Shown here one piece after another: positions 5,187-35,009 of a DNA stretch of 35,820 nt. The position numbers and the translations under genes are program-made. Origin of the DNA: Opitutales bacterium. GTDB taxonomy: Bacteria; Verrucomicrobiota; Verrucomicrobiia; Opitutales; JAJFLR01. The stretch lies in the NCBI GenBank assembly GCA_021772565.1, contig JAJFLR010000048.1:1-35820 (forward strand), in the 5' to 3' direction. Below the pieces are notes generated by a model that did not search any database, was not told where the DNA came from, and saw only the letters and a list, made by a program, of their open reading frames with translations. The first letter of the stretch is position 1. Each line of letters starts with the position of its first letter.

Positions 5187-5214
5187 AGGTTAGAATTAGT
5201 GTACTAACCTTTAT
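5187..5214 (+). terminator. Possible terminator after the MoxR gene
   Basis: AGGTTAG (5187-5193) and CTAACCT (5204-5210) form a 7-bp stem with a 10-nt loop, followed by TTATT. It sits between the convergent MoxR and exosortase genes and overlaps the exosortase stop codon. The stem is short and the T-tail imperfect. Confidence 0.4.
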
Positions 5215-6754
5215 TAATCTCTAATGATCGATCAAGAAATTCTTTAGTTTGTTTCTTGGCTTCTTCAATTGATGGTGATCCAGTAATAATGATTTCAATG
5301 GATTTTCGACTATTGATTCTCTTACCGTTAGCTACATTTACCAAACGCTCTTTCATTGAATCTGCCAGTGGAACTGCTATTCCGGGAAAATCACTCCAAA
5401 CTGCATAAAACACGTAGATGGGTGTTCCGAATGTTTCAAATTTATATGAGCTGATATTAATTGTTAAATCGTTATTTTCCCAAACAAAAGAGTCGCCAAA
5501 ATCTATTAAATTTAGACCTGATGCCGGCAAACATATTTCAGGGCGATGAACGCCCGCAAATGATGATACTTTCCCTTTATCCCAACTTAGAAAATATACT
5601 AACCATCTTTCATTTTTGTCATTAATCCATGATGCTTTAATTCCTTCAGTAGTTCGCAATACGCTTTTAACTCGGCTTGGGATTTTATGAAAATTAACCT
5701 TCGAATTTACATTGTCCCAATTTATTGAGACAATATGTGGATCAAGATCTTCCGCTTCATTTTTGGAATACCACATTTCAGATATTAAAAACGAGATTAC
5801 AAATAATGAGGAAATCATTATTAAAGTTGGTGCCTTAAGCCATCTGAGACCTTCATTTTCACTTCTTTGAACGCATGGGGTTGGAGGTTGTGATACCCGT
5901 AATTTATTTATTATTAACGCCGATACAAATAGTACTAAAAATGATGTAATTGAAATTGCATAGCCAACCGGATCGTGCCAATACTCAATATCTCCGGGAT
6001 TCTGACTATACGAAACAAATGTCAGTATGTAAGTGCGAATTATATTTAATAAAATTGAAACGACTGAACCAAATATTATTAGTGATAATCTTATGTAAAT
6101 TCGGAGTCGAAATAGTTCACCAAAAAAATATCCGGCCATTATTGTTGACTGAAATGATCTTACACCGCTACAGGCTTCCTCAACACCAACCATTCCGGTT
6201 GAAAGTTTTATCAAGTTACCTTTTTGCTCTGCAGGTACTCCTGATAAATTCATTGCGTCAACTGTTATAGTTGCAACCATTTGCATCAAATGTTGTGTGA
6301 TTGGCTGTTCGATCATGTTCAACCATGGTACTGCAAATAAAATAACAGCAGCTGGTATTGCAAAATGCCTAACCCATGAATAACTAGTCCATAACCAAAT
6401 TACAACCAGTGTGATTAAATATACATTTATTGCTTGTGCCCACTGAACAACACGCCAGTCAGGATTGGATTGATAAATTATTTTTAGTGGTAAAATTGTT
6501 AGCACTAAAAAGATTAGCGTAAGAAATAAAATAATATTTTGTGAAGAATTTTGATTAGAATTTATAGCTGGTCTATCTTCCCATCTTAGATAAACAAGAT
6601 AGAGAGTTAAAAAAGGAACGAAATAACCATAACGATATTGTTCATCAATGCTCCATTCTAACTCTAGAATTCTAATGAGATCGAGCCACAGAATTGCTAA
6701 AATCGAGATATTTGCATATTTCAGAATATTTAACTTATCCAAGTTTTTTTTCAT
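5204..6754 (-). CDS. Exosortase fused to an EpsI-type domain
   Basis: The 516-residue protein has two parts. Residues 1 to about 285 form a multi-pass membrane exosortase, the transpeptidase that cleaves PEP-CTERM tails: GVEEACSGVRS with catalytic Cys195, NIIRTYIL with Arg240 and HDPVGYA with His260, all in the expected order. After another hydrophobic segment (about 310-325), residues 340-516 form an extracytoplasmic EpsI-like domain with the hallmark HRPEICLPASG (403-413). EpsI proteins are found with exosortases and exopolysaccharide genes. A second exosortase is divergent from it across 312 bp, and proteins with PEP-CTERM-like tails lie at 9615 and 18161. The start MKKNLDKL is the only plausible one. 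I cannot assign a numbered exosortase subclass. Confidence 0.9.
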   Translation of the reverse strand: MKKNLDKLNILKYANISILAILWLDLIRILELEWSIDEQYRYGYFVPFLTLYLVYLRWEDRPAINSNQNSSQNIILFLTLIFLVLTILPLKIIYQSNPDWRVVQWAQAINVYLITLVVIWLWTSYSWVRHFAIPAAVILFAVPWLNMIEQPITQHLMQMVATITVDAMNLSGVPAEQKGNLIKLSTGMVGVEEACSGVRSFQSTIMAGYFFGELFRLRIYIRLSLIIFGSVVSILLNIIRTYILTFVSYSQNPGDIEYWHDPVGYAISITSFLVLFVSALIINKLRVSQPPTPCVQRSENEGLRWLKAPTLIMISSLFVISFLISEMWYSKNEAEDLDPHIVSINWDNVNSKVNFHKIPSRVKSVLRTTEGIKASWINDKNERWLVYFLSWDKGKVSSFAGVHRPEICLPASGLNLIDFGDSFVWENNDLTINISSYKFETFGTPIYVFYAVWSDFPGIAVPLADSMKERLVNVANGKRINSRKSIEIIITGSPSIEEAKKQTKEFLDRSLEINKG

Positions 6755-7066: not shown

Positions 7067-8104
7067 ATGAAAAGCGATTTTTTTCTATTACCCCGTCAAG
7101 CTCAAGTAGCGGCTTGGATCTGTGTTGGCTTTCTTGCATTTTTAGCAGTTGATCAATCTAGATGGTGGGGCATGCGCGAAGATTATAGTTTTGGGTATTT
7201 GGTTCCACTGTTTGTAGCTTACGTAATTTATGAACGTTGGCCTGTGATAAAACAAATTTTTATTAAAAGTAAAACTGTTATTGACGAAAATGGAGATGAC
7301 CAAACTTCTGTTGAAACTCGAATACCTCAAGCTGAAAATATAGATTCGTGGTCACCTGCATTAACTAAATTTTTGGAGGTACTTTTTATAACAGTGTTAA
7401 TATTGGGACTGTTATCTTTTGTTATGGGAGCTTTTTTGAAATCACTAACTGGCCCGGGATTACCTGTTACCTGGTTGCTTACCGTCGGATTTGTCGGTCT
7501 GGTTTTTGGAATGATTTACAGTTTTAGTGATTTTGATTCTGAAAACAATACTATCCATCCAAAGACCAGACTGCTTCTCACATCTATGTTTATTTTTCCA
7601 TGTTTCATTTGGTTGATATCATCTCCACTGCTTGATTTTCTAGAAACTAAATTAAGCCTGTTTCTATTAAGTAATGTAATTAAAGTCGTATTTGTTGTTT
7701 TCGACCTTTTGGCATTACCGATAGAAATTCAAGGGAACGTTTTGATTTTGCCCAAAGGACAGGTCGGAGTAGCCGATGCTTGCTCCGGCATTCGTTCACT
7801 GACTGCATGTTTATTTGCAGGATCTTTTTTAAGTGCTGTCTTTTTGGATAGTTTTCTGAAAAAGTTTTTGCTAGTTGCTTCGGCAATGTTTCTTGCATTT
7901 GTCACAAACATTATAAGAAGTCTTTTTTTAACCTGCTGGGCTTATGCTTACGGTTCAGATTCCATCAGTGGAAAAGTTCACGATATTACTGGATATGCAG
8001 TATTGGGGCTAACGTGTATTGGGTTACTTTGTTTGTTGCCTATATTTAATTTTAAATTCACTTATGAACCCGATGAACTTCCGGAAGCATCAGCTTCTAG
8101 TTAG
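7067..8104 (+). CDS. Second exosortase (single-domain)
   Basis: This 345-residue multi-pass membrane protein carries the full exosortase active-site set: GVADACSGIRS with Cys239, NIIRSLFL with Arg284 and KVHDITGYA with His305. It starts with MKSDFFLLPR and a first membrane segment at about 15-28, followed by the family's RWWGMREDYSFGYLVPL region. An acidic loop (about 70-95) and a separate hydrophobic block precede the catalytic core. It lacks the EpsI domain of its divergent neighbour and ends in a short cytoplasmic tail. Its role should be to recognise a membrane-embedded C-terminal PEP-type tail, cleave it and possibly transfer the protein to another anchor. The glgA gene follows after 28 bp in the same direction, so the two may share a transcript without a functional link. 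Confidence 0.9.
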   Translation: MKSDFFLLPRQAQVAAWICVGFLAFLAVDQSRWWGMREDYSFGYLVPLFVAYVIYERWPVIKQIFIKSKTVIDENGDDQTSVETRIPQAENIDSWSPALTKFLEVLFITVLILGLLSFVMGAFLKSLTGPGLPVTWLLTVGFVGLVFGMIYSFSDFDSENNTIHPKTRLLLTSMFIFPCFIWLISSPLLDFLETKLSLFLLSNVIKVVFVVFDLLALPIEIQGNVLILPKGQVGVADACSGIRSLTACLFAGSFLSAVFLDSFLKKFLLVASAMFLAFVTNIIRSLFLTCWAYAYGSDSISGKVHDITGYAVLGLTCIGLLCLLPIFNFKFTYEPDELPEASASS

Positions 8105-8132: not shown

Positions 8133-9614
8133 ATGAATATTTTAATGATTGCGTCAGAAGTTGCACCCTATGTTAAAGTGGGTGGATTGGGTGATGTAGT
8201 GGGAGCACTCCCTAAAGCTATTGAAAAACTTGGACACGATGTTAGAGTTATTTGCCCATTATATGGGTCTATTGTTAAAGATGAAAATTGGAACTCTTTT
8301 AAGTCTCCTTTTAATATATATTTTGGAGGGAAAAATTTAAAAGCCAAAATTTGGGAGAGCACATTACCTAATAGCAATGTTAAGGTCTACTTTATTGAGT
8401 ATAATGTTTTATATGCCTACAAGGAAGTTTATAGCGGTCCATGGGGAGCTCACGAAAATAATGACAGAAGATTCATTTTTTTATGTCGATCGGGGATTGA
8501 ACTTTCAAAATTAATCAATTGGCAGCCAGATGTAATACACTGCCACGATTGGCCAACTGCACCTACTTCCCTAATGTTAAAGACTTCGTATTTAAATGAG
8601 CCTAAAGGAAATTGTGCGACAGTGTTAACAATTCATAGTATTCAACATCAGGGGAGTTTTCATGCAGGAATTTTAGATTATGCCGGTGTGGTATCAGAAA
8701 GTATTTTTGACACCGGTCATTTAGAGACAAATGACCAGTTGAATTTTTTAAAATGTGGATTGATTTATTCGACAAAAATTACAACAGTAAGTCCTAACTA
8801 TGCTCGTGAAATTCAGACGCCGGAATATGGATATACGCTTGATAAAACTTTAATTTCTAGATCATCAGATTTAGTCGGAATTTTAAATGGTATTGATCGT
8901 GAAGAGTGGAATCCTCAAATCGATATTTATATTCCCAAAAATTATTCATCTGATAATTTAAAGGGAAAGTATGGATGTAAGGCTCATCTCCAGAAAAGTT
9001 TTGGACTGAAAGAAAAACCTGATATACTGCTATTTGGAGTTGTTGCTCGATTATATGAGCAAAAGGGAATTGATTTACTTGCTGATATTATCCCAAGAAT
9101 GATGGAGCAAATGATTGTCCAGCTTGTAATTTTGGGAAACGGTGATACTGAGTTGGAGAAAAAAGTAGAGATGTTGGCAAATAGGTATTCTGATCGTTTG
9201 GGTTTTCAAACAGGATTTCATAATTCTTTGGCTCATTTAGTTTATGCCGGATCCGACTCTTTCATAATGCCAAGTAGGTTTGAGCCTTGTGGATTGAGTC
9301 AGATGTATGCGATGAACTATGGTACCCCACCGGTAGCAAGAGCGACTGGCGGACTCATAGATACTATAGATCAATATGTAGAGGGATCAGAAAAAGGTAC
9401 TGGATTTCTTTTTGATTTGCCGACACAAGATGCACTATACTATACCTTGGGGTGGGCTTGCTCTACGTATTATGATCGTCCGGCAGAATTTTTGAATTTG
9501 CAATTGAACGGTATGAAAAAAGATTTCTCATGGGATGTATCAGCAAAATTATACGAGCAAGTTTATAAAAGTGCCATCGAAGCTGAGCGGGTTAGAATAT
9601 TGTTAGATACTTGA
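8133..9614 (+). CDS. glgA: Glycogen synthase (ADP-glucose type, GT5)
   Basis: This 493-residue enzyme extends glycogen by adding glucose from ADP-glucose to alpha-1,4 chains in the cytoplasm. It has the full GT5 layout: KVGGLGDVVGALPKAI at residues 15-30 (the KxGGLGDV glucan/nucleotide-sugar loop), HCHDWPTA at 136-143, VSPNYAREI at 219-227, and the C-terminal nucleotide-binding face with SRFEPCGLSQMYAMNYGT at 381-398 and TGGLID at 405-410. The length is typical. It begins 28 bp after the second exosortase, and its TGA touches the stop of the convergent secreted-protein gene with no spacing. No other glycogen gene is in the window. Confidence 0.95.
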   Translation: MNILMIASEVAPYVKVGGLGDVVGALPKAIEKLGHDVRVICPLYGSIVKDENWNSFKSPFNIYFGGKNLKAKIWESTLPNSNVKVYFIEYNVLYAYKEVYSGPWGAHENNDRRFIFLCRSGIELSKLINWQPDVIHCHDWPTAPTSLMLKTSYLNEPKGNCATVLTIHSIQHQGSFHAGILDYAGVVSESIFDTGHLETNDQLNFLKCGLIYSTKITTVSPNYAREIQTPEYGYTLDKTLISRSSDLVGILNGIDREEWNPQIDIYIPKNYSSDNLKGKYGCKAHLQKSFGLKEKPDILLFGVVARLYEQKGIDLLADIIPRMMEQMIVQLVILGNGDTELEKKVEMLANRYSDRLGFQTGFHNSLAHLVYAGSDSFIMPSRFEPCGLSQMYAMNYGTPPVARATGGLIDTIDQYVEGSEKGTGFLFDLPTQDALYYTLGWACSTYYDRPAEFLNLQLNGMKKDFSWDVSAKLYEQVYKSAIEAERVRILLDT

Positions 9615-10265
9615 TTAATTCTTACATCCTGAACGTTTGCGGTAATAAGCCAGACCGAATGCCCCTAATGCCAGGATTGCAGCATAATTTGACGATTCAG
9701 GAACCGCAGTTACTGTAATCGGTGTTTCTGGTGTGTCATCAAATTTGCCACCTAGAATAGTTAAGGTTTTAGTTGATGCAACCCAAGACACATTAATAAA
9801 ACCAAATTCATTGTCTCCATTTTTAAAACCGATTGCACCTGAAGGACGATCCACATCCCATGGTACTTTATTACCAAAATTTGTAGTATATCCATAGTCA
9901 CCAAAATCAGAACCTATCCCATTAATTGTTGATCCCACGGAATAATAGAGTAATGCAGCAGCTGAAGTTGATCCTGTGTTAAAGACATATGCTCCGTTAT
10001 ATCCATCGAGAAATACCCGTGCTAATGTGAAATCATTGTCACCCGAAATTAATATTAAATCATCAGCATCACTCGATTGACTCAATACAAAGTTGAAATC
10101 ATCTCCTGCACTTCCACCCCCTCCGGCAATAAAAGTTTTACTCAGTAGGCCAGAAAGGTCTAAGTTTATCACATCGGCTGTCAACATTGATGTCGACGAA
10201 ACAACACCTACTGACACAGCTAAACTTTTTGAGCTTAATGCGTATTTTAATATTCTTTTTTTCAT
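9615..10265 (-). CDS. Secreted protein with PEP-CTERM-like sorting tail (VPESS variant)
   Basis: The 216-residue product has an N-terminal export signal (MKKRILKYALSSKSLAVSVG and on to about residue 30) and a C-terminal tripartite tail: VPESSNYA (188-195), a hydrophobic span AAILALGAFGLAYY, then RKRSGCKN. This is the PEP-CTERM plan with Ser in place of the second Pro. The mature domain is Gly-, Asp- and Asn-rich and predicted all-beta, with a motif GFKNGDNEFGFINVSW; no enzymatic signature is seen. It is expected to be exported, cleaved at the tail by an exosortase and left at the cell surface. Two exosortases are encoded close by. The Cys near the end is unusual for such tails. It is convergent with glgA, with stops back to back. 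Confidence 0.85.
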   Translation of the reverse strand: MKKRILKYALSSKSLAVSVGVVSSTSMLTADVINLDLSGLLSKTFIAGGGGSAGDDFNFVLSQSSDADDLILISGDNDFTLARVFLDGYNGAYVFNTGSTSAAALLYYSVGSTINGIGSDFGDYGYTTNFGNKVPWDVDRPSGAIGFKNGDNEFGFINVSWVASTKTLTILGGKFDDTPETPITVTAVPESSNYAAILALGAFGLAYYRKRSGCKN

Positions 10266-10448: not shown

Positions 10449-12065
10449 TTAAGATTTTTCACCAAATATCTCTTGTATAGTTTGAAGCATTTCGTTCGGC
10501 TTATAAGGTTTTGTGACCACACCTCTAAACCCATATTCTCGGTAATTTGACAGTACCGGATTATTTGCATAACCACTAGAGACGATTGCTTTGACCTCTG
10601 GGTCAATTTTCAGTAATTCCTTAATAGTCTCCTCACCCCCTTTTCCGCCTCGAATTGTCAAATCAAGAATTACAATATCAATCGACTCATCGGTATTTAG
10701 AGATTTGCTGTAAATCTCCAGGGCCTCTTCACTGTTTTTTGCCAATTTAACCTTATGTCCACCTTCTTGGAGAATATCGACTGAATAACCCCTAATGAAA
10801 TCATCATCATCCATAACTAACACTCTACCTTCTTGTCCTAATAGAATTGAATCATCATCGATGCAATTATCTATACTTGCTTGGGAAATTGGAAGATAGA
10901 CAAAAAATGTTGTACCAACACCGAGTGTGGATTCTAAGGTAATATAACCTGCATGATTGTTGACGATTGAAAAAACAGTGGCAAGACCCAGACCGCTACC
11001 TTTTTGTTTGGTAGTAAAAAATGGATCAAATATTCTTTGCCTATCCTTAATCGTAATACCAATTCCCTCGTCTGCTATACTTATTTTTACAAAGTCTTTT
11101 CCGTTGAGTGGAAGTTCAACATCCTTGGACTTGGTGAAATTTTCTGCTTTTATCTTAATGGTACCGCCATTTGGCATTGCTTGATCAGCATTAATGATAA
11201 GATTTTGTATGACTTGATTGATTTGGCCATAATCTGCATCAATCGGTTTTATGTCATCAGGCATTGAAAATTCAGCAGTTATCTTTGAACCACTCAGAGC
11301 AAAATCAACAGTCTCACGAAGAAGTCTTTCTGTAGGAACAGCTTTTTTTATTGGCTCACCACCTGTGGCAAATGTTAAAAGCTTTTGTGTTAGTTTTTGA
11401 GCTTGATTACTGGCATTCTCGGCCCTGGTTAATTGATTGAGACTCTCTTGTTTGAGTTTGGAAGTCAATTTAACAAGAGAAATATTTCCAATAATAATAG
11501 TCAAAAGATTATTGAAATCGTGTGCGATTCCTCCGGCTAAGCTACCGACGGATTCAAGTTTTTGGGTTTTAAGAAGTTCTGTTTCCATTCTTTTACGCTC
11601 AGTGATATCTACTGATGTAACGATGATATACTCGATTTTCCCCTGATCGTTATGTGCTGGTAGAAATGTAGTATTAAACCAAACCTCTACGCCATCCATA
11701 TCGAACATTGGGCATTCAACACTGGAAATCTCACCTAATTTTGCACGTTCTAGATGATCGGTTAGGACTTTTTGAGTCGTTTCCGGATAGAAATCAAGAG
11801 GGAAAGTACATCCATAATAACGATTAATATCGGGTATTTTGAGTCGATTAACACCAGCTGAACTCATGTAAAGCAAACGAGAGTTTAGATCAATTATTTT
11901 ATTACACACAGGTGATCCCTCAAGTAGGGCGCAACTTTGAATATTAGAATTACCCAGCTTGTCTTGAGGCAAATCAGTGTCATCTTTTTCAATTTCAAAA
12001 ATCCGCTGCTGCAACTCTTCTAATTCAGCAACAAGTTGAGCTCTAGTTTTATTTTCGTTTTTCAT
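10449..12065 (-). CDS. PAS-domain hybrid histidine kinase with receiver
   Basis: The 538-residue protein has no membrane segment, so it is probably a cytoplasmic sensor. After an N-terminal coiled coil (about 8-28), a PAS domain spans about 40-158 and ends in VDITERKRME. The dimerisation/phosphoacceptor helix reads GSLAGGIAHDFNNLL with His182, the class typical of NtrB-like kinases. The ATPase domain shows the N box (NLIINADQAMPNGG, about 288-301), G1 DEGIG (332-336) and GSGLGLA (356-362). A receiver domain follows, with acidic pocket DDDD (419-422), phosphoacceptor Asp468 in VILDLT and Lys519 in TKPY. There is no DNA-binding output, so a separate phosphotransfer partner or regulator is needed, and none is adjacent. 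Confidence 0.92.
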   Translation of the reverse strand: MKNENKTRAQLVAELEELQQRIFEIEKDDTDLPQDKLGNSNIQSCALLEGSPVCNKIIDLNSRLLYMSSAGVNRLKIPDINRYYGCTFPLDFYPETTQKVLTDHLERAKLGEISSVECPMFDMDGVEVWFNTTFLPAHNDQGKIEYIIVTSVDITERKRMETELLKTQKLESVGSLAGGIAHDFNNLLTIIIGNISLVKLTSKLKQESLNQLTRAENASNQAQKLTQKLLTFATGGEPIKKAVPTERLLRETVDFALSGSKITAEFSMPDDIKPIDADYGQINQVIQNLIINADQAMPNGGTIKIKAENFTKSKDVELPLNGKDFVKISIADEGIGITIKDRQRIFDPFFTTKQKGSGLGLATVFSIVNNHAGYITLESTLGVGTTFFVYLPISQASIDNCIDDDSILLGQEGRVLVMDDDDFIRGYSVDILQEGGHKVKLAKNSEEALEIYSKSLNTDESIDIVILDLTIRGGKGGEETIKELLKIDPEVKAIVSSGYANNPVLSNYREYGFRGVVTKPYKPNEMLQTIQEIFGEKS

Positions 12066-13417: not shown

Positions 13418-13756
13418 TTCTTTTTTAGAATAAGAAAAAGAATGAGTTGAGTCAAGGTATAGATCGGACATATACCACTATGCAGTGTTTAGAAACTGTC
13501 GTGTTTATCAATTTGAGTTAAGATCAGTTGAACCTCAAAATTTATATAGTCATTTGTAATTAAACTTTAGTGTATCATTGTTATAACGTTACCTATATCG
13601 TAATCGAATTTATCTCCATATATTGTAATTTCCTCTAGATTGGTGTTTTGCTGGAATTCAGTGAACACTCTCGGCTAAATAATTAGGAAAATAAATATGG
13701 CTGACCTAGCTATATATTGGATTGATTACTTAAACATTAAGTTTAACTTTAACAAT
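13418..13756. other. Noncoding divergent region
   Basis: This 339-bp stretch separates the secreted protein (minus) from the antitoxin (plus). It should hold both promoters, including an autoregulated antitoxin operator. No defined palindrome or promoter boxes stand out. Possible extended starts at 13471 and 13697 lie within it but were not preferred. Confidence 0.3.
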
Positions 13757-13999
13757 ATGAAAACGATATCTATGTTGGAATTTAGAAAGAACGCTGCTAA
13801 AGCAATAAATGAAATTAAACAAGGGCGACGATTTAAGCTCACTTATCGTGGCGAAGAAATTGCAGAAATGGTACCTATTGTTACAAATAATAAAATTGAA
13901 AAGGACGATCCATTTTATCGAATTACCGATTTAGCATCTAAGGCGGGAAGTACTTTGAATAATGATCAAATAGATAAATTGATTTATGGCAAAGAATGA
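13757..13999 (+). CDS. Phd/YefM-type antitoxin
   Basis: Starting at the internal ATG at 13757 the protein is 80 residues and opens with the typical antitoxin N-terminus MKTISMLEFRKNAAKAINEI, then GRRFKLTYRGEEIAEMVPI. This is the Phd/YefM fold that dimerises and binds its own operator, while the charged C-terminal half (DDPFYRITDLASKAG) would wrap the toxin. An upstream in-frame ATG at 13697 would add 20 unrelated residues. Its last codons overlap the ATG of a PIN-domain toxin at 13986, the classic translational coupling of such pairs. The toxin is broken, so this antitoxin is now an orphan. Confidence 0.85.
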   Translation: MKTISMLEFRKNAAKAINEIKQGRRFKLTYRGEEIAEMVPIVTNNKIEKDDPFYRITDLASKAGSTLNNDQIDKLIYGKE

Positions 14000-14404
14000 T
14001 ATTTTTATTGATACATCAGGATTTTATTCACTTTTCGTGAATAAAGATGCGATGCATAATCGTTCAAAAAAAAACTGACAAAATTAAGTAAAAACCGAAG
14101 TGCTGCTTTTACGACTGACTATATTGTTGATGAAACAGCAACTTTACTGAATGTACGTGGGCTTAGGCATATTGCTGATGATCTATTTAATATTCTAGAT
14201 GAAAGTATTGCTCTAAAATTGGAGCAAATAGATGAGTTTAGATATGATCAAACGGTTAAATACTTTAGAAAGTGATTTGATCATGATTACTCATTTACAG
14301 ATTGTAGTAGTTTTACAATTATGAAAGAAATGCGACTAACGAAAGCTCTTACGAAAGATAAACATTTTATTGAAAATGGTTTTGATGCACTGATTGTTGA
14401 ATAA
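13986..14404 (+). pseudogene. Broken PIN-domain (VapC-like) toxin
   Basis: From ATG 13986 the reading is MAKNDIFIDTSGFYSLFVNK, with the first PIN acidic residue (FIDTS), and ends at a TGA after RSKKN. Adding one A to the nine-A run at 14066-14074 restores the frame: KLTKLSKNRSAAFTTDYIVD, then ETATLLNVRG. A second TGA at 14273-14275 interrupts FRK-stop-FDHDYSFTD, where a TGG would fit. After it come SFTDCSSFTIMKEM, which carries the later PIN acidic residue, and LTKALTKDKHF, ending at TAA 14402-14404. The repaired protein would be about 139 residues, the usual PIN toxin size. Such toxins are Mg-dependent RNases held inactive by the antitoxin. Two independent lesions make inactivation convincing. 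Confidence 0.85.
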
Positions 14405-14412
14405 TTCTAACG

Positions 14413-16755
14413 TCAGCCAGGAACATCTTTTAGCCAGTCAGCTAATTCTTGATTATTTTTAATCGAACAATAGTTTTGGTACTCTGATGACAACAGCTCA
14501 CGGTAAGACTTTTCGGCAAATCGTTTGCAATGTAGCAAAATCGAAGCTTTTTGTCCGGGTGCTCTAACGATCCTGCCTAAGGCCTGATTAACTTTAATCA
14601 TGCCAGGAATTTGATAGACTTGTTTAAATGCATCACTATTTAAATTTTTCATTTTGGCATCCTGAATAGCATTTACTTCCGGAAGTGCCGGGCCGACTAC
14701 AATTACGAGATTTGTTTTGCCTCCGAGGATATTGATGCTCTCGGAATAACCGCTACCCAGTACAAGCAATAAAACATTTGCACTGATCAAACTCGACTCG
14801 ATAAAATTATTTTGCTCTTGCAGATTTTTAATTCGTGGCTGTAGAGCTACACGCGTAAATGGACTAATTGCTTCAATGTAAGCTTTTACAGATTCTGCAT
14901 AGCGATATGACGGGAAAAATGTTACCACGGGTGTGTTTGAATAAATAGATGCCTGGTTAATAGTTTCTGCAGTTGTTTCATAATATTTTTTTCTTTCTGA
15001 AAAACGCGTGTTTATTCGAGTGTCTATGGCGACATTAAATGCTCCTTGACGCCAGTCAGCCTCAGCCTGAATTGTTTCAATAGAAATTTCTGAAGTGAGC
15101 CCACATGAACTTTTATAGTAGTGCATTGGTGATAAAGTTGCGGACATAAAAATAGTTTGTGCCAATTGTTTCAATTGATCTCCAATTTCCAGCGAAGCAT
15201 TGATACAGGTGAAATGTATTTTTTGTTTTTTTGCTGACCAAATAAGTTTATCGATTAAGGGGTTTTCCAGGAAATTTTTTATCTCAATAATTTCCCATAG
15301 TTTATCCATTGCTGCGGGAGTAAATAACTCGGCATTGAGATGAGTTTTTAGTAATAAATTAACGATAGGTTCTATTATTGCTAAAACTTCATACTCGAAA
15401 TTTAAATCAAACTCCTTTGATTCTTTGATACTATCGAGAGTATTTATCCAGTGACTCCATACCTGTAAAAATAATGCATCAGTATTTGCTAGTACCAATT
15501 CGTCATAAACAGAAATAGCATCATTGTAAGAAAAATTAAAAGAGTAGTTATTTGCGACTCTAGATGGAAAATTATGAGCTTCATCGATGATGACTAATGT
15601 TTGTTTTAAATCAAAGCCCGGTTGCTCAAGAAATATATTTCTACTACGGTGAGAAAATAGATAATTATAATCTCCAATCCATATTTCAGCAAAGGGTAGG
15701 GCGGCCCGGCTAATTTCGTAGGGGCAAACCCCAGAATTTATTCCTTTGGTCTTAATATCTTCAAGTTGTATTGTGCCCTCTTTGTAGAGTAAGGATGGTG
15801 CTATACCGGCGTCATTCCATTTTTCCTCAATGTTTGTTCTGCATCCGCCAACATCATCACAAGTGTGCAACAGTGATGCTATATTGTGTTCACTTTTGTT
15901 ACGCATTTGGAAATATTGAATACTGGTGTCATCGCCGATAATTGATTTGAGCTGCTCTGTAATTTGTAGTTGGCCGGTACTTTTGCTTGTTAGATAGATA
16001 CATCGATCAAAAATATTTTCACTTAATCTTTTTAACGCATAATCGAGAACTATGCCTGTCTTGCCATACCCTGTAGGGGCTTCAAAAAAAATAAACTCTT
16101 TATCGCAGGATATGGCGTTGAGTTTATTGATTGAAATTTCCTGACCGGTGCGCAGTTTTTTAAATACCGGTTTGTGTTTTAATTTTTTAAGTCGAAGATG
16201 TGAATTATTTTTCTCTTCGATAAAACTGTGGATTTTGTTTAATTGATTAGAAAATAATTTATGCCACAAATCATCGATTTCTATTTCCTGTTTAACACCA
16301 TCATTAATATTAACGAAAACCAAACTGCCCAAGATTGATTTATCTTTCAAGTCGTTAGATAGATTTGCCAGCTGCATATAAACTGCAAGTTGGGCAAAAT
16401 ATGCGGGATACTGGCGCGAAAGAATTTCATTTTCACAAGGCAGAGCTTTGCTTACGGTTTTAATTTCTTTGAGAATAATGTTGTCATCAAGTGTTTCAAT
16501 CTGGTCAATACGGCCTTGAATTTCATAACGCCAATTTTCATGGATATAATTTCCTGATAATTGATACTCGAAATTAATGTTTGAACAGGTTGATTGAGTT
16601 TCTATTTCATTTCGCAATTCCTGATGCCATTGTTGACCTACCTTTGCTCTCCATAGGTTGAAAGATGCTCCTCCAGAATCTGACGGGCCGATTTTAAACT
16701 CTGCAAATTCCCTGGCACTTGTCTTGACTGTTCTATTGAGCAAGTCGATTTTCAT
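14413..16755 (-). CDS. PD-(D/E)XK nuclease-XPD/DinG-like helicase fusion
   Basis: The 780-residue protein combines two activities. The N-terminal part (about 60-180) matches a RecB/Cas4-like nuclease fold: GRIDQI with Asp84, ILKEIKT with Glu97 and Lys99, then QYPAYFAQLAVYM. From about 205 it is a superfamily 2 helicase of the Rad3/XPD/DinG type: Walker A EAPTGYGKTG (225-234), DEAH (391-394), SATLSP (538-543) and motif VI QALGRIVRAPG (724-734). An insert after Walker A has Cys299, Cys305 and Cys344, like the Fe-S region of this family, but only three cysteines are obvious where four are usual. It likely unwinds and trims damaged or foreign DNA 5'-3'. It is encoded 3 bp after the MFS gene. Confidence 0.88.
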   Translation of the reverse strand: MKIDLLNRTVKTSAREFAEFKIGPSDSGGASFNLWRAKVGQQWHQELRNEIETQSTCSNINFEYQLSGNYIHENWRYEIQGRIDQIETLDDNIILKEIKTVSKALPCENEILSRQYPAYFAQLAVYMQLANLSNDLKDKSILGSLVFVNINDGVKQEIEIDDLWHKLFSNQLNKIHSFIEEKNNSHLRLKKLKHKPVFKKLRTGQEISINKLNAISCDKEFIFFEAPTGYGKTGIVLDYALKRLSENIFDRCIYLTSKSTGQLQITEQLKSIIGDDTSIQYFQMRNKSEHNIASLLHTCDDVGGCRTNIEEKWNDAGIAPSLLYKEGTIQLEDIKTKGINSGVCPYEISRAALPFAEIWIGDYNYLFSHRSRNIFLEQPGFDLKQTLVIIDEAHNFPSRVANNYSFNFSYNDAISVYDELVLANTDALFLQVWSHWINTLDSIKESKEFDLNFEYEVLAIIEPIVNLLLKTHLNAELFTPAAMDKLWEIIEIKNFLENPLIDKLIWSAKKQKIHFTCINASLEIGDQLKQLAQTIFMSATLSPMHYYKSSCGLTSEISIETIQAEADWRQGAFNVAIDTRINTRFSERKKYYETTAETINQASIYSNTPVVTFFPSYRYAESVKAYIEAISPFTRVALQPRIKNLQEQNNFIESSLISANVLLLVLGSGYSESINILGGKTNLVIVVGPALPEVNAIQDAKMKNLNSDAFKQVYQIPGMIKVNQALGRIVRAPGQKASILLHCKRFAEKSYRELLSSEYQNYCSIKNNQELADWLKDVPG

Positions 16756-16758
16756 TGA

Positions 16759-17967
16759 TTACTGAGTAGATACGTTACGTTTTCCGACAATGCCTCTCAA
16801 AGGAATAAATAAAATTGTAGCTAAGCCGACTAATGTTAGAGCAACCCAGCCGACAAAAACGGGGTGAGTCTTTGCCATAAGTGAATAAGCAACATAGGGT
16901 GCAACCAATCCACGCACACCGGTTGATCCGCTGTGAATACTCATATAGGCTGAAACTTTTTCCCGGTGTGCAATTTTCGTTACCCAAAGTTGCCATATTA
17001 TACTAAATCCACCCATAGAAAAACCAAATAACATCATACTAAAACCCATCACCCATATTTTTGATGTGAAGAAAAATATTAGAATTGCAAAGAGTAATAT
17101 TGAGTTTGTCATTATTTGGATGACAATCAAATTTAGTTTGTCGAATAGAATTCCCCAAAATTTTGTTGATAGTAAACTAAAAAATACCGGAATCGCTCCG
17201 AGAACTAACCCGATAGTCTCATTAGACGCATTCACATTATAGATTGGGTTTGTCATATACTCAAAACGCATGGGAATCATCATTAAATTTCCCATTCCCA
17301 TAATTGACCAACATAGAATTAATTGACCAAACATTTTATCTTTAAATATCAGATTGATATTTTTCAGTGGGTTAACAGTACTTTCAGGATGAAGCTTTTC
17401 CGTTGGAATTTTGAAAACTGCAAAGGCAGCCCCTAACGCCATACATGAACACAGTAACAATACTAGGCGAAAGTATTGCAAATTAATATCGAGTAATCGT
17501 CCACCAGTGTACGAAAAGGCAGCGACGACAATTCCGGAAATCAGGATAGTTGATGAAAGGCGTTTGCCTCGAATAGCTGAATTATAATTATTGGCATAGA
17601 TTTGAGTAGTAAGTGGAGCACATTGAGCTACTGACATCAGGGCTAGCATCATAAAAAAAGTATAGAGATACAGATTAGCTGAAAAAGCTGCAATGGCTAG
17701 GCAGAATGCAGAGACGGTTAAGTATAGAGCACACCCGCTTCCTGCTTTTAATTTCAACCTGGAGATAAGAATTAAAGTAAATGGAGCGAACAGTGCACCG
17801 ATTGGATAGGCAGCCGGAATATTACGTTTGATTTCTATCGGTGCGTTAAAAACACGTATGGCTATCAACAATGCAAAAGTATGCCAACAGGCGTCAATGG
17901 CTCCTGAGAATGAACCCCGAATTCTATCCCATTTATAGGTTTTGTCTGAAATTTCTGTTGGGGTCAT
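16759..17967 (-). CDS. MFS-family membrane transporter
   Basis: The 402-residue protein has about twelve hydrophobic segments in two halves with a cytoplasmic central loop (about 190-210, KIPTEKLHPESTVNP), the major facilitator layout. A loop with positive charges (NSAIRGKRLSS, about 131-141) follows segment four, and a segment rich in Gly, Phe and Met (MMLFGFSMGGFSIIWQLW) lies in the second half. I cannot name a substrate. It is transcribed ahead of the nuclease-helicase with only 3 bp between them, so the two are probably an operon although no functional link is known. It is an importer or exporter of a small solute in the inner membrane. Confidence 0.82.
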   Translation of the reverse strand: MTPTEISDKTYKWDRIRGSFSGAIDACWHTFALLIAIRVFNAPIEIKRNIPAAYPIGALFAPFTLILISRLKLKAGSGCALYLTVSAFCLAIAAFSANLYLYTFFMMLALMSVAQCAPLTTQIYANNYNSAIRGKRLSSTILISGIVVAAFSYTGGRLLDINLQYFRLVLLLCSCMALGAAFAVFKIPTEKLHPESTVNPLKNINLIFKDKMFGQLILCWSIMGMGNLMMIPMRFEYMTNPIYNVNASNETIGLVLGAIPVFFSLLSTKFWGILFDKLNLIVIQIMTNSILLFAILIFFFTSKIWVMGFSMMLFGFSMGGFSIIWQLWVTKIAHREKVSAYMSIHSGSTGVRGLVAPYVAYSLMAKTHPVFVGWVALTLVGLATILFIPLRGIVGKRNVSTQ

Positions 17968-18160: not shown

Positions 18161-18781
18161 ATGAAAACAGGTATAATTATCACATTATTAATATCAATGG
18201 TAAGTTCATTAAACGCTGCGTTATATCAAATTGAACTATCACCGTCAGTTCCCGGACTAAATGAGGGCTCAAACCCCTACACAATAGATCATGCAGTAGG
18301 TCTTTCAGGAGCAAATGAAGCAACACCTAATGCGAGTAATGCTTTTGGTGATGCTAACGAAATAATATATGATGATGACAGCGGTGAATTGTTTTTTGAC
18401 TTTGAATATGGGAGTGACTTTTTTGGTACCGGGACTGATTTAACGTCCGACTGGACAGCCACTCACATACACGGACCTGGAGGAGTCAATGCGCCATCAC
18501 CTAACATGGGAGGAGATGTAATATTTAATTTAGCCGGCGATCACACACCGGGTTCATCAGCATTAACTGGGTCTTTTTTTGGATCTGTAACTTTAGATGC
18601 TACAAATGAAGGGCTTTTATTTGATAATGCCTTATACATTAATATTCACTCGACAAATTTTACTAGTGGTGAAATTCGTGGACAACTGATACCTACCGAG
18701 GTTATTCCGGAGCCTAACACTTATGGCTTTATTATGGGATTAATAACGTTTGGTATATTGATCATTAGAAAAAGAAATTAA
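18161..18781 (+). CDS. CHRD-domain secreted protein with PEP-CTERM tail
   Basis: The 206-residue protein has a signal peptide (MKTGIIITLLISMVSSLNAA), a CHRD domain spanning about 45-178 and a C-terminal sorting tail. CHRD features include FDFEYG, THIHGPGG (101-108) and NIHSTNFTSGEIRGQLIP (161-178); the last is the most recognisable part. The tail is IPEPNTYG (182-189), hydrophobic FIMGLITFGILII, then RKRN, a classical PEP-CTERM. It should be exported and processed by an exosortase; two lie at 5204-8104. The role of bacterial CHRD proteins at the cell surface is not well defined. The upstream region contains TTGACA and TATAAT words but with only 13 bp between. A terminator lies at 18921-18960. 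Confidence 0.88.
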   Translation: MKTGIIITLLISMVSSLNAALYQIELSPSVPGLNEGSNPYTIDHAVGLSGANEATPNASNAFGDANEIIYDDDSGELFFDFEYGSDFFGTGTDLTSDWTATHIHGPGGVNAPSPNMGGDVIFNLAGDHTPGSSALTGSFFGSVTLDATNEGLLFDNALYINIHSTNFTSGEIRGQLIPTEVIPEPNTYGFIMGLITFGILIIRKRN

Positions 18782-18969: not shown

Positions 18970-21780
18970 TTAGTGTTTAGCAGCATTAGCTATAGTGACC
19001 CATTTATTAATAACTCTTGTTAATTCTGCAGGTTTAATAGGCTTTGTGATATAATCATTCATTCCCGCATTTAAACATCTTTCACGATCTCCCTTCATTG
19101 CATGAGCAGTCATTGCAACTATCGGTGTTTCTTTATTTTGTGAAATATCGTTTGACCTGATTTCTTGTGTAGCGACTAATCCGTCCATTACCGGCATTTG
19201 AACATCCATTAAAATAATATCATATCTTTTATAAGATACAGCTTCTACAGCTATTTTACCATTTTCGGCTATATCGATTTTGTGGCCAATTTTACTGAGA
19301 ATCTTTATTGCAACCATTCTGTTTACTTCATTATCCTCAACCAGTAAAACGTTCGATTTGAAACTGGATTCAGACAAAACACTAAATGGTGCTCGACTAT
19401 CTTTTGACTGAAATTCAGCAGAGAAACCGGTTAATAAATTATATATTGAATCCAATAATAATTTATGTCTAACTGGTTTATTGAGGCAAATTTTGCAGCC
19501 TAGTTTTTTAAATTCTCTTGTTAGGGGTACATTGTCTACGGAGGTTAACACGATGATTGGATGATCGGTATAAGCCTCGTTTGCGATGATAGATTTGTAG
19601 AGAGTCAGGCCATCCATTTCCGGCATGTGGTAGTCAATAATTGTCAAATCAAAATTCTTGTTTTGATCAACTGCTCTATCCAAAAGACCAATAGTTTCAA
19701 GTGGATTGGTAGCCTGGGTAACCAAACAATTATAAGAAGTTAAAATATTATTGAGGATATCAAGATTAGTTTTGTTATCATCGATAATTAATATTCTCTT
19801 ACCATTTAAACTATTATTCAGCTTTTTTAGTTCTGAGTCCGGCAGTAATTTTTCTGATTTAGGAAAAGTAATTTTAAACCAAAATTTGCTCCCTTTTCCG
19901 ACTTCACTGGTGACGCCCATTTTACCCTTCATCAGGTTGACTAGTTTATTTGATATTGTCAGGCCGAGACCGGTTCCGCCAAATTTTCGAGTGGTGGATG
20001 TATCTGCTTGAATAAAACTATCAAATATTATACCGAGGCGATCTTTAGCTATTCCGATTCCTGTATCACTTACAGAAAATAATAATGTTATAAATTTATC
20101 ATTTTCATTTATTAGATCCACACGAGTATCAACAGAACCCTTATCAGTAAATTTTACTGCATTACTGCACAGATTGACAATAATTTGATGTATACGTTCA
20201 GGATCTCCAATTAAATGATTTTTTATCCGGGGATCTGTGAAGGTAGTGCACTCAATGTTCTTTTCATTAGCACTTGGAACAATTAAGTCAACTGAACTTT
20301 CAATGATATCCTGTACATCAAACGCAACTTCTTCCAAATCAAGTTTACCGGATTCTATTTTCGATAAATCCAAAATATGATTTATTAAGACTAATAGTGA
20401 GTCTCCGGCATTTTTAACTGTCTTTAAAAATTCTTTTTGTTCACGATTCAGTTCAGTTTCTAATAATAATCCGGTTAGGCCAATAATTGCATTCATCGGT
20501 GTTCTAATTTCATGACTCATATTAGCCAAGAAAATACTCTTTGTATTAGTAGCATTTTCAGCAGATACTCTTAATTTTTCAGAAACATGTAAGGCAGTTT
20601 TAGTTTCTTGTGCGGAGTTTTTGGCATTTTTGAGTGCAGCTTCTAATTTTGCCGTCGAGCCACTTAATTCGCGATTCATTTCATTAATTGACGCGGCTAA
20701 TTCTCCAATTTCATCATCTGATTCAATTTCAATATGATTTGAGAAATCACCTTGGGTTATTGAATTAGCAACTTTTGTAACGCGCCTGATTGGTTGACTG
20801 ATTCTTTTGGCAAATTGATTAGCCAATATCATTACTATGAAAATTAAAATTATACATAAGATGATGAACTTGTACTGCAGTGTAACTAATGGGGCAAATG
20901 CAGTAGCTAAATCATGAACGACTAACACTTTCCATTCCAGACCATCGAAACTGTCATATCCACTTGATTTAGCATAACTGATTAAGTATTCTAAATCATT
21001 TGATAAATTAGATGTAATAAATCCTGAGCGATCTTCAACTGTATCGGTGATACTGAAGATTTCCTGAACAATTCCTGAATCAATAATGTTTTCATCATTT
21101 AAATTATTTAAATTATAATACAAAGCATTGTTGAAATTATTGATGAGAAATATGGCGATTTTACTTGGATTGTTCTGATCCGGATTAATGATACTTTTTG
21201 TGATTTTATCAATTTCATTCCAATTTAGAAATGCAACCAAATGACCAATCGTTTTATTTGAGTTATTCTTTAAAGATTTGATAGGTGTTGAAACAGCTAT
21301 TGTATGTTCTGCGGATGATAGGTCATTATATTCAATGTCCGATATTTTAGTTGCAGACTCTTTCATTATTTCACTCAACCATGCAGAACTTTTGTGATTT
21401 TTATGTATAGAATTAGGGTCACTCGATGCGATAATTTCCCCTTCCATATTAAAGCAATACAAAGATGAGTATAATTTGAAATTCTTCTGCAAATTGGTTA
21501 AGCTTTCATTAATCTTACCATACGGATCATCACTGGCCACCTCCTGCATGATTTCATTAACAGCCAAAGCTTGAATTTCTTCTTTTGAGAAAAATAAAAA
21601 TCGATCAATATTATCGATTGTTTGAACGGATATCCTCTCAAAACTTTGGCCGATATTTTCCCTTAGATTCGATCTGCCTTTAAAATATGTTAATAGCGAA
21701 ATAATTATAGCCGGTACTAAAGCAACGAATAGCAATAATAACATCAATTTTCTTTGAATCGAAAACTTTTTAGACATCAT
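18970..21780 (-). CDS. Membrane hybrid histidine kinase, double receiver
   Basis: This 936-residue sensor is anchored by two membrane segments (about 11-32 and 303-322) flanking an extracytoplasmic region of about 270 residues, probably a double Cache-type ligand domain. Then come HAMP (about 323-378, [12 protein letters not shown]), a coiled coil, the kinase core with [18 protein letters not shown] (His423), the N box [12 protein letters not shown] (538-549), G1 SDTGIGI (571-577), the F box and GGTGLGL (601-607), and two receivers. Receiver 1 has DD (667-668), Asp716 and Lys768; receiver 2 has ED (815-816), Asp859 and Lys913. It looks catalytically complete. There is no histidine phosphotransfer domain, so a separate one should connect it to an output. 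It lies 91 bp downstream of the UDP-sugar pyrophosphorylase gene on the same strand. Confidence 0.94.
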
Positions 21781-28536: not shown

Positions 28537-29310
28537 ATGAGCTCTGAAAATAAAATTCCGGTTTCAGTTTGTCTGTTGGTTAAAAATGAAGCTGATCGTT
28601 TACCTGGGACTTTAGAGAGGTTGAATTTTTTTTCAGAGATTGTTGCTTTGGATAGTGGCAGTACTGATAATTCATTAGAAATTTTGGGAAAATTTGGTGT
28701 ACGTATCATCCAAAGTAATTGGCAAGGTTTTGCTAAAACCAGAAAAGTGTTATTTAATTCTGCTGAGCAACCCTGGATTTATTGGTTAGATGCTGACGAA
28801 ATAATTACTGATCAACTTAGAAATGAGTTAATAGAATTATTTAGTAGTCCGATAGATTTAACTGCATTTATGGTTAATCGAATTGTTTATTTTGATGGTC
28901 ATTGGATAAAGCACGGGGATTGGTTTCCTGATTGGAATGTTCGATTGTTTCGCAGTGATAAGTGGAAAATGGAAAATAGAGAAGTGCATGAATCTATAAC
29001 TATACTTGGCGAAATTGGTAAACTTGGTGGACTTATGGAGCATTATACATATAGAAACTGGGAAGATATGCGCCAGCGTTCATTGCGTTATGCAAATCTT
29101 TGGGCCGTTGAAGCATTTGCTAAAAATAAAAAATATTCACTGCTAATATCATATCTTCGATCAGTGTGGCGGTTATTTAGAGGATTGATATTAAAGGGCG
29201 GATTGCTCGATGGAATTATTGGAATTAAAATAGCAATAGCAATATCAAAGGAAGTACTTTTAAAATATAGATTGCTCGGAGATTTAATTCGTTCAAAAAC
29301 TAATCAATAG
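28537..29310 (+). CDS. GT2 glycosyltransferase, WaaE/LgtF-like
   Basis: I start at ATG 28537 (257 residues); the upstream TTG at 28531 adds only two residues. The GT-A fold shows VSVCLLVKNEADRLPGTLER (9-28), DSGSTDNSLEIL (39-50) and the metal-binding DxD in YWLDADEI (82-89). NWQGFAKTRKV and the later REVHESI and HYTYRNWEDMRQRSLRYA are typical of LPS-core glucosyltransferases of the WaaE/LgtF/KdtX type. It should use a nucleotide sugar at the inner-membrane cytoplasmic face. It is probably cotranscribed with the GT4 gene and overlaps the convergent GT-C gene by 11 bp. Confidence 0.88.
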   Translation: MSSENKIPVSVCLLVKNEADRLPGTLERLNFFSEIVALDSGSTDNSLEILGKFGVRIIQSNWQGFAKTRKVLFNSAEQPWIYWLDADEIITDQLRNELIELFSSPIDLTAFMVNRIVYFDGHWIKHGDWFPDWNVRLFRSDKWKMENREVHESITILGEIGKLGGLMEHYTYRNWEDMRQRSLRYANLWAVEAFAKNKKYSLLISYLRSVWRLFRGLILKGGLLDGIIGIKIAIAISKEVLLKYRLLGDLIRSKTNQ

Positions 29311-33614: not shown

Positions 33615-35009
33615 ATGGAACAAATTAAAACTGAACATAATTATTGGGCTAATATTAAGAATGAGTTAAAAAATTTATTATCAGAGGATATATTTAATAT
33701 GTGGATTAGTCCGCTTCAATGTGTTGAAGAAGGCGATGAAACTTGGATTTTATCAGCACCTAATGAATTTGCGGCTATCTGGCTAAAAGATAACTACCTT
33801 GATCTTATAAGCAAACATGCTGAAATTTTAACCCAAAAGCCTATTCTCATCGTTGTTGAATCAAATGATTCATCACATGAAAACCCTAATAACAGGGTTC
33901 AAAGTAGTCGTGACCGGTCTGTCAGTGACAAACTTGAAATTGCCGGTGCTAACAAGAGGGGATTGAAGTCGCATATTAAGACAAAGATTCCATTGTTAAA
34001 TCATAAAAATACATTTGAAAATTTCATAGTGGGTTCCAGTAATCAATTAGCACATGCAGCCTGTGTAGCAGTAGCAGATTCATTGGCAAAAGATTATAAT
34101 CCTTTATTTCTCTATGGTGATACTGGATTGGGAAAAACACATTTAATGCATGCTATCGCTCACCAAGTTTTAAATATAAATGAGGATGCTCAAGTTGTTT
34201 ATGTGTCCTGTGAAAAATTTACAAATGAATTTATACGTGCAATTCAGGAAAACAATTTAGTTAATTTTAGAAAATTTTATAGAAATATTGATTTACTTCT
34301 TATTGACGATGTGCATTTCCTCGCCGGTAAAGAGAGAATTCAAGAAGAGTTTTTCCACACTTTTAATGAACTCTATGAATCGCAGAAACAAATTTGTTTG
34401 TCCAGTGATAGACCTGCAAGTGAAATTTCCAAGCTGGAAGCACGTCTTGTCTCCAGATTTCAATGGGGTATGCTCGCTGATATCCAGGCACCTGATTTAG
34501 AAACTCGAGTCGCTATTTTAACCAAGAAAGCCAAGAATGCCGGTTATGACATACCCGATGATATTATTACTTTCATGGCTCAGCACATTACTAGAAATGT
34601 CAGAAGAATGGAAGGGGCTCTAACACGTGTAGCCAGTATTAATATTTTAACCAAAAAAGAACTTAATATATCAACTGTCGAATCACTTATTCAGGATATT
34701 TTACTGGAAGAGGCTCAAAGCAAATTAACTATAGAAAAAATCCAGAAAAAAATTATCGATTTTTACGAGCTTCGTATGACTGACCTTTTAGGAAAAAGGC
34801 GACCCAACAAAATTGCATTTCCAAGACAGGTTGCCATGTACTTATGTAGATTATTAACTTCACATTCTCTTCAGGAAATTGGTGATGCATTCGGTGGCCG
34901 TGATCATGGTACTGTTATTCATGCCTGTAAAACTGTAGAAAATATGACAGATCAGGATGATAAAATTAAGCGAGATGTTGATTACCTGACTAAAAATTTA
35001 TCAGTTTAA
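33615..35009 (+). CDS. dnaA: Chromosomal replication initiator DnaA
   Basis: The 464-residue protein binds DnaA boxes at the origin and opens DNA for replication. It has all four domains: an N-terminal helicase-loading domain (about 1-80, YWANIKNELKN and FNMWISPLQ), a linker (about 85-130), the AAA+ domain with Walker A YGDTGLGKTH (167-176), Walker B LLLIDDVHFL (227-236), sensor 2 RRMEGALTRV (330-339), and the DNA-binding domain with PRQVAMYLCRLLT (403-415) and the signature AFGGRDHGTVIHA (425-437). The length is standard. No dnaN or recF follows; instead a small gene comes 12 bp downstream. One DnaA box lies just before the start codon. Confidence 0.98.
   Translation: MEQIKTEHNYWANIKNELKNLLSEDIFNMWISPLQCVEEGDETWILSAPNEFAAIWLKDNYLDLISKHAEILTQKPILIVVESNDSSHENPNNRVQSSRDRSVSDKLEIAGANKRGLKSHIKTKIPLLNHKNTFENFIVGSSNQLAHAACVAVADSLAKDYNPLFLYGDTGLGKTHLMHAIAHQVLNINEDAQVVYVSCEKFTNEFIRAIQENNLVNFRKFYRNIDLLLIDDVHFLAGKERIQEEFFHTFNELYESQKQICLSSDRPASEISKLEARLVSRFQWGMLADIQAPDLETRVAILTKKAKNAGYDIPDDIITFMAQHITRNVRRMEGALTRVASINILTKKELNISTVESLIQDILLEEAQSKLTIEKIQKKIIDFYELRMTDLLGKRRPNKIAFPRQVAMYLCRLLTSHSLQEIGDAFGGRDHGTVIHACKTVENMTDQDDKIKRDVDYLTKNLSV

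Follow-up and report, generated by a model that had tools for sequence, protein, structure and literature searches.

Two genes that lie 3 bp apart on the minus strand of an Opitutales contig raise the question of what kind of enzyme the downstream gene encodes, and whether its pairing with a transporter means anything. They were found in a stretch of 35,820 nucleotides (JAJFLR010000048.1, assembly GCA_021772565.1), referred to below as the window. The downstream gene (14413..16755, minus strand) codes for a protein of 780 amino acids combining a nuclease with a helicase, referred to as the window protein; the upstream gene (16759..17967, minus strand) codes for a 402-amino-acid transporter of the major facilitator superfamily (MFS), and the 3 bp separate its stop codon from the helicase ATG. 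The positions and sizes of both open reading frames (ORFs) are exactly those given in an earlier, sequence-only reading of the same DNA. Three Pfam families match above cut-off: DEAD_2 (63 bits, cut-off 21) and Helicase_C_2 (77, cut-off 25.3) on the window protein, and MFS_1 (52, cut-off 33.4) on the transporter. We consider it likely that the window protein is an EndoDinG with an ordinary cellular role in the repair or recombination of DNA in Opitutales, with an iron–sulphur (Fe-S) cluster probably kept with the help of H297, and that the transporter is a neighbour acquired by rearrangement. This interpretation is based, by sequence and structure comparison, on the domain make-up, the complete active sites, conservation in the order, a recurrent gene neighbourhood and a residue swap in the Fe-S site.

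Among solved structures, the DinG of Finegoldia magna (PDB 9kqh) is nearest both in sequence and in fold; the alignment covers residues 7-760 (sequence match, E 3.1e-43 over residues 8-758; structural match, VIA Z 26.8, root mean square deviation 5.2, 703 residues). The structural match was obtained with an AlphaFold2 model of the whole protein (predicted local distance difference test (pLDDT) 91.2; predicted template modelling score 0.90). The N-terminal PD-(D/E)XK domain, of RecB/Cas4-like type, occupies residues 1-195 (16171..16755, minus strand). Modelled alone (pLDDT 94.8), it best matches 9kqh (Z 15.3), followed by Cas4, SSO0001, MGME1, RecE, AdnA and AddA (Z 13.4 to 10.5); Cas4, MGME1 and RecE are DNA nucleases. 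Residues H44, E63, D84, E97, K99, Q122 and Y126 are invariant in alignment A2, which contains 41 out of 42 prepared domains and to which other families of the phylum contribute eight; the outgroup sequence L206, left out of this alignment, has a serine at the place of E63. Among 106 orthologues, E97, K99, Q122 and Y126 are kept in all, E63 and D84 in 105 each and H44 in 104, the remainder being gaps. On these residues, the nuclease site of the window protein (H44, E63, D84, E97-x-K99, Q122-x3-Y126), the completeness of which was one of the checks proposed in the sequence-only reading, is complete, and the fusion described there is borne out by the full-length alignment with 9kqh, the invariant motif residues and the confident domain model.

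The helicase core extends over about residues 225-770 (14446..16083, minus strand). It carries a Walker A motif APTGYGKT (226-233), a DEAH box (391-394) and the residues Q724, R728 and R731, which we take to be the motif VI region; G229, G231, K232 and T233 of the Walker motif and the DEAH box are kept in 106 of 106 orthologues. Of the NCBIfam helicase models, rad3 (TIGR00604) scores 138 bits, under its cut-off of 247, the DinG and YoaA models score 22-57 bits (22-43 bits for the YoaA and DinG equivalogs, which have cut-offs of 598-794), and dinG_rel matches residues 524-769 only. The window genome also encodes a second DinG of the ordinary type (C19, 688 amino acids); a Helicase_C_2 search recovers both copies, and 28 of the 40 order-level genomes having any match have at least two. 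A helicase-core tree was built with six ordinary DinGs of the same order, one of them from the window genome, YoaA sequences not being included. The 20 nuclease-fused proteins, that is the window protein and 19 others including Listeria and Acetoanaerobium relatives, are split from the six ordinary DinGs with support of 100/100. An ordinary DinG or YoaA is rejected on this position, on the presence of the nuclease domain and on scores far under the equivalog cut-offs. ExoDinG is also rejected, the N-terminal domain being PD-(D/E)XK and not a DnaQ-type 3'-5' exonuclease.

The window protein is classed by its motifs as an EndoDinG, an architecture that is already described. It has the N-terminal PD-(D/E)XK domain with H, E, D, E and a catalytic K, and the XPD/DinG core with Walker A and DEAH; H44, E63, D84, E97 and K99 fit the residues named for the group (PMC11981726, partial text). 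Where the same partial text gives four cysteines for the Fe-S domain, the window protein shows three and a candidate histidine; three- and four-Cys domains are both counted as FeS domains there. Our literature search, which did not extend to most subscription journals or to any preprints, found no published paper on 9KQH; among the papers listed, none dealt with the DinG of F. magna, and PMC11981726 was the only one to treat EndoDinG.

The variation of the Fe-S site is mildly surprising and is the part most worth following. In the window protein this region spans residues 278-350 (15706..15924, minus strand) and reads H297-x-C299-x5-C305 ... C344, with N291 at the place of the first cysteine (Cys1). 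The three obvious cysteines reported earlier are thus correct for this stretch (C299, C305, C344), and the search for a fourth ligand, also proposed there, has a divided outcome: a fourth cysteine is absent, but the sequence offers H297 as a candidate. The 106 aligned orthologues, which are the 112 distinct proteins minus six shorter than 700 amino acids, fall into four classes: 59, L105 for instance, have the four-Cys layout, 7 have at least four Cys in a divergent layout, 23 (the window protein among them) lack Cys1 and show H-x-C-x5/6-C...C, and 17, L151 for instance, have lost the site (16 with no Cys, one with a single Cys). The class of 23 is defined partly by its own pattern, and the independent test consists only of the 20 proteins with exactly three Cys; a histidine stands two residues before the first of these Cys in 20 out of 20. 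At the place two before the second cysteine (C2), the 59 four-Cys proteins have F (52), P (6) or S (1) and never His. These patterns suggest H297 as the replacement ligand for the lost Cys1, and a [4Fe-4S] cluster is probably still bound by the domain, H297 standing in for the first cysteine. H290, part of a conserved EH pair, is an unlikely fourth ligand: every class retains it, and so do 16 of the 17 cluster-free proteins, the other having a gap.

The 17 orthologues without the site keep the Walker, DEAH and nuclease residues. All outgroups have at least four Cys in the Fe-S stretch, which suggests that loss of the site is derived. The cluster-free state requires four changes on a tree of 116 rows and five on a tree of 57 rows, with strongly supported branches forcing only one; both are quick trees, and the CCCC label of ten outgroup rows was assigned by rule. 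Four loci (L119, L125, L181 and L077) were dropped, having yielded no helicase ORF by greedy ORF picking; L181 and L077 belong to one genome (G039), the protein of which, as L018, has no Cys in the Fe-S stretch. For the family as a whole, we give about even chances to a series leading from a four-Cys site, through the Cys-to-His ligand swap of the window protein, to complete loss, perhaps several times, with the nuclease and motor residues invariant throughout. A competing explanation is that the three-Cys domain of the window protein has lost its cluster and survives as a structural remnant, in transition to the cluster-free state seen in relatives. The 17 proteins with one or no cysteine and both active sites intact make such an end state credible, but a remnant would be expected to decay, and the three cysteines and the histidine are all kept in the 20 exactly-three-Cys proteins, over three clades; we regard this explanation as unlikely, and favour retention of the cluster with H297.

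If the series is true, an Fe-S cluster could be re-ligated, or even dispensed with, while the enzyme is retained. XPD-like helicases are generally considered to need the cluster for important functions, and there is still debate on whether in XPD/DinG helicases it serves structure, senses redox state or acts as a wedge between the strands. A family with four Cys, with His and three Cys, or with none offers natural variants for probing this role, instead of disruptive point mutants. Single-residue swaps are mentioned for DinG-like proteins in general (PMC11981726, partial text); among the papers listed by the literature search, none described Cys-to-His swaps or cluster loss in the EndoDinG group.

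The gene is widespread in the order, whose members are mostly aquatic, and is apparently inherited vertically. Orthologues are present in 31 of 52 order-level genomes, the window genome included (29 of the 46 good ones). At E 1e-30, a search across the phylum (288 genomes) gave an orthologue in 52, of which 39 belong to the same order, and no match in at least 216. All 80 loci that carry a name are, by title, of Verrucomicrobiota, mostly labelled Opitutales, Opitutaceae, Opitutae or Puniceicoccaceae; the cultured species Cerasicoccus arenae has an orthologue at L094. A place of the helicase among ordinary housekeeping DinGs was one of two findings that the sequence-only reading named as refuting it; the tree sets the helicase apart from these, but it does behave as a widespread, apparently vertical gene of its order.

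Gene-by-gene comparison of the window with 30 loci of relatives, with families identified from one member each, revealed a recurrent block: HIT - PhoH - HDIG - YbeY - DUF502 - RecO-like - (unknown) - helicase - PyrR - PyrB - PyrC - CAAX protease - AIR-synthase-like. HDIG, YbeY, PyrR, PyrB, PyrC, DUF502, the protease and the AIR-synthase-like family are over cut-off; HIT, PhoH and RecO are under. There are 112 distinct helicase loci, 92 with at least 1.5 kb upstream, and the mechanical ORF calling used for the counts undercounts. The RecO-like gene lies at most four genes upstream of the helicase in 32 of these 92 loci, pyr genes lie downstream in 16, and 57 have some gene of the block within four genes of the helicase in either direction. 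The window genome has these genes apart from the helicase: contig 58 carries the RecO-like gene with the next gene of the block, and contig 105 carries pyrR-pyrB-pyrC; hence the helicase gene most likely left an ancestral place between the recO-like and pyr genes. For the little-studied EndoDinG group, such a neighbourhood with a RecO-like gene is a hint of a role in recombination repair. In several relatives, members of two families of about 290 and 370 amino acids, with no Pfam match at E 0.001, lie between the RecO-like gene and the helicase (L071:6365-7255, L238:8319-9212, L080:5532-6665).

The polarity, the mode of cutting, the repair role and the ligation by histidine are what we infer from these comparisons. 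Helicases of the XPD/DinG family translocate 5'-3' on single-stranded DNA and open forks or flaps. The motor of the window protein would most likely move 5'-3' along single-stranded DNA, opening forks, flaps, D-loops or R-loops, while the metal-dependent PD-(D/E)XK nuclease would cut the strand being threaded. It might in this way prepare ends or flaps for RecO-dependent recombination. Recombination repair is suggested by the RecO-like neighbour, and the DNA-repair theme of the earlier reading can be kept. The protein might instead act mainly on RNA or R-loops, like the DinG exonuclease of Listeria, a DinG-like relative reported to remove unprocessed rRNA (PMC12774634, partial text); YbeY and the PhoH-like protein of the neighbourhood are RNA-linked by name. 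That enzyme is named an exonuclease, however, and is presumably of the ExoDinG type, and the structural neighbours of the nuclease domain are Cas4, MGME1 and RecE, so that we find a mainly RNA-directed role improbable.

Several observations weigh against an EndoDinG acting in repair with a His-ligated cluster. The Pfam family PDDEXK_1 scores 19.7 bits on the window protein, under its cut-off of 22; the nuclease assignment is nevertheless settled by the alignment with 9kqh, the seven invariant residues, and the domain model with its structural matches. The link to recombination depends on a gene that is best called RecO-like and no more: the RecO model is its sole NCBIfam match, in 7 of 11 proteins at 18-30 bits (best 29.7, cut-off 48.7), and Pfam RecO_N is matched in 4 of 10 proteins, all under cut-off. 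This gene is not within four genes upstream in 60 of the 92 loci, the window included. No match to the helicase gene was found in 21 of the 52 order-level genomes (17 of the 46 good ones), and its absence, although 13 of the 21 are under 2 Mb, indicates that it is dispensable. At the Fe-S site, the residue adjoining C2 is already His in 40 of the 59 four-Cys proteins; the two His positions may be homologous, the histidine then being inherited and not recruited as a ligand. The 20 three-Cys proteins group in three clades and do not represent 20 independent events. Lastly, for the Bdellovibrio relative, endonuclease activity is given as unpublished data (PMC11981726, partial text).

Relatives of the transporter are present in 36 of 52 order-level genomes, and it adjoins nadA in 11 of 23 loci examined (with an MFS ORF recovered in 21), a proximity that hints at NAD precursors as candidate substrates; no PDB sequence matches it at E 0.1. 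The nadA gene of the window genome is on contig 1. Only the window, L122 and L138, three of 92 loci, have the MFS gene directly upstream of the helicase, and among the 24 genomes holding both genes, the window's included, the two are adjacent by coordinates only in the window genome and in G009. Both trees agree on the descent of these pairs: L122 and L138 group with family f10 (100/99 in the MFS tree), and the window with family f5 (98 in the helicase tree, 90/89, unstarred, in the MFS tree), in two members of which (L061 and L063) the helicase still has the RecO-like gene close by or adjoining. That the pairing probably has at least two origins is mildly surprising. L138 has the order nadA-MFS-helicase and L122 the order MFS-helicase-pyrB-pyrC; one keeps nadA upstream and the other keeps pyr genes downstream, as expected from the joining of two ancestral blocks. 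In G030 and G031 the two genes are 38 and 98 kb apart on the same strand with the MFS gene upstream, so that a local rearrangement could bring them together.

Rearrangement therefore most likely explains the pairing better than function, with the transporter mostly an incidental neighbour: the helicase gene would have left its place between the recO-like and pyr genes, and a rearrangement would then have made the transporter its neighbour. The adjacency that the sequence-only reading thought worth checking is not conserved, and the counts (3 of 92; nadA proximity in 11 of 23) reject a conserved MFS-helicase operon and speak against any meaningful system of the two. Its restriction to this genome was the other refuting finding named there; the pairing is seen in two lineages, but it is rare. 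Cotranscription, also proposed, agrees with the shared strand and the 3-bp spacing, from which alone the transcript is deduced, but a promoter and terminator scan found sites no commoner than in shuffled sequence (29 vs 33.5; 3 vs 3.7). A functional pair, for example one in which the transporter exports a DNA-damaging compound and the enzyme repairs what that compound has damaged, could account for the 3-bp gap, for the overlaps in L122 and L138 (about 11 bp, provided that translation starts where the match does) and for two lineages that stand apart in the helicase tree and in the MFS tree alike; with adjacency in 2 of 24 genomes, frequent proximity to nadA and the signs of joined blocks and local rearrangement, we hold it very unlikely.

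Defence was the other context suggested for the nuclease-helicase. Such fusions are common in defence, and the PADLOC type IV DinG model matches the window protein with 209 bits, over residues 196-769 only. Among 29 of the 30 window ORFs of at least 100 amino acids (the other being an overlapping 106-amino-acid ORF at 5950-6270), PADLOC gave no convincing defence match besides the helicase core; the other matches, to one signalling protein and two AAA+ ATPases, are weak (at most 26.6 bits). No CRISPR-like array was found in the window, nor direct repeats of at least 22 bp within 120 bp. A type IV CRISPR CasDinG is rejected, as the match is limited to the helicase core and no Cas protein is found among the other scanned ORFs; a defence-island setting is likewise not supported within the window. 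Viral contigs gave five partial matches (23-26% identity), plasmid records 15 and phage records 23 (21-27% identity among the matches listed), and on such distant matches a mobile or phage origin is rejected. An anti-phage nuclease-helicase, for which the PADLOC score and the absence of the gene from 21 of 52 genomes could be cited, is the least likely of the explanations given the core-only match, the lack of defence matches elsewhere in the scanned ORFs and of close-spaced repeats, the housekeeping neighbourhood in many relatives, the apparently vertical distribution and the distance of the viral matches and of the plasmid and phage matches listed.

The window contains several other features. 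Two close, divergent exosortase (EpsH) genes (5204-6754, minus strand; 7067-8104, plus strand) adjoin a glycogen/starch synthase gene (8133-9614), and the proteins encoded at 9615-10265 and 18161-18781 have ends that by eye resemble the PEP-CTERM sorting signal, the second protein also having a CHRD domain. At locus L087 (G036), a similar exosortase and glycogen-synthase pair adjoins the HIT-PhoH-HDIG-YbeY-DUF502-RecO-like-helicase block; the exosortase and helicase neighbourhoods may have been linked in an ancestor. Region 13697-14405 (plus strand) has a Phd/YefM-type antitoxin ORF (28.1 bits, just under the Pfam cut-off of 29.8), followed by a toxin remnant, PIN-like by eye, in which a frame change and an internal stop interrupt the reading frame. 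Pfam predicts a hybrid PAS/histidine kinase/response-regulator protein at 10449-12065; a protein of 936 amino acids at 18970-21780 (minus strand) is, by eye, apparently another hybrid kinase, and its weak PADLOC matches are judged spurious. An ORF of 769 amino acids (29300-31609, minus strand) has no Pfam match at E 0.001, and dnaA lies near the window end (33615-35009, plus strand). Rfam (gathering threshold) and tRNA scans gave no match.

Among known systems, XPD/Rad3 proteins (Thermoplasma, yeast and human XPD) share the helicase core (Z about 20-26; rad3 model, 138 bits); however, the alignments to the XPD chains listed begin only at about residue 193, leaving the nuclease domain without counterpart there, and the rad3 score is below the family cut-off. 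The ordinary DinG of the same genome has the Helicase_C_2 match and the Fe-S cysteines in common with the window protein, but it lacks the nuclease domain, has 66 residues before Walker A as against 225, and is on the opposite side of the tree. The EndoDinG subgroup, represented by the DinG of Bdellovibrio bacteriovorus HD100, shares the PD-(D/E)XK domain with H/E/D/E and K, the XPD/DinG motor and the Fe-S domain, and its CCCC motif is given as conserved (PMC11981726, partial text), whereas the window protein lacks Cys1 and 17 of the 106 orthologues lack the whole site. The DinG of F. magna has at least four Cys in its aligned Fe-S stretch, as against His and three Cys in the window protein, and identity is about 23%, but it has the same two-part architecture over nearly the full length, with both the helicase and the nuclease parts aligned.

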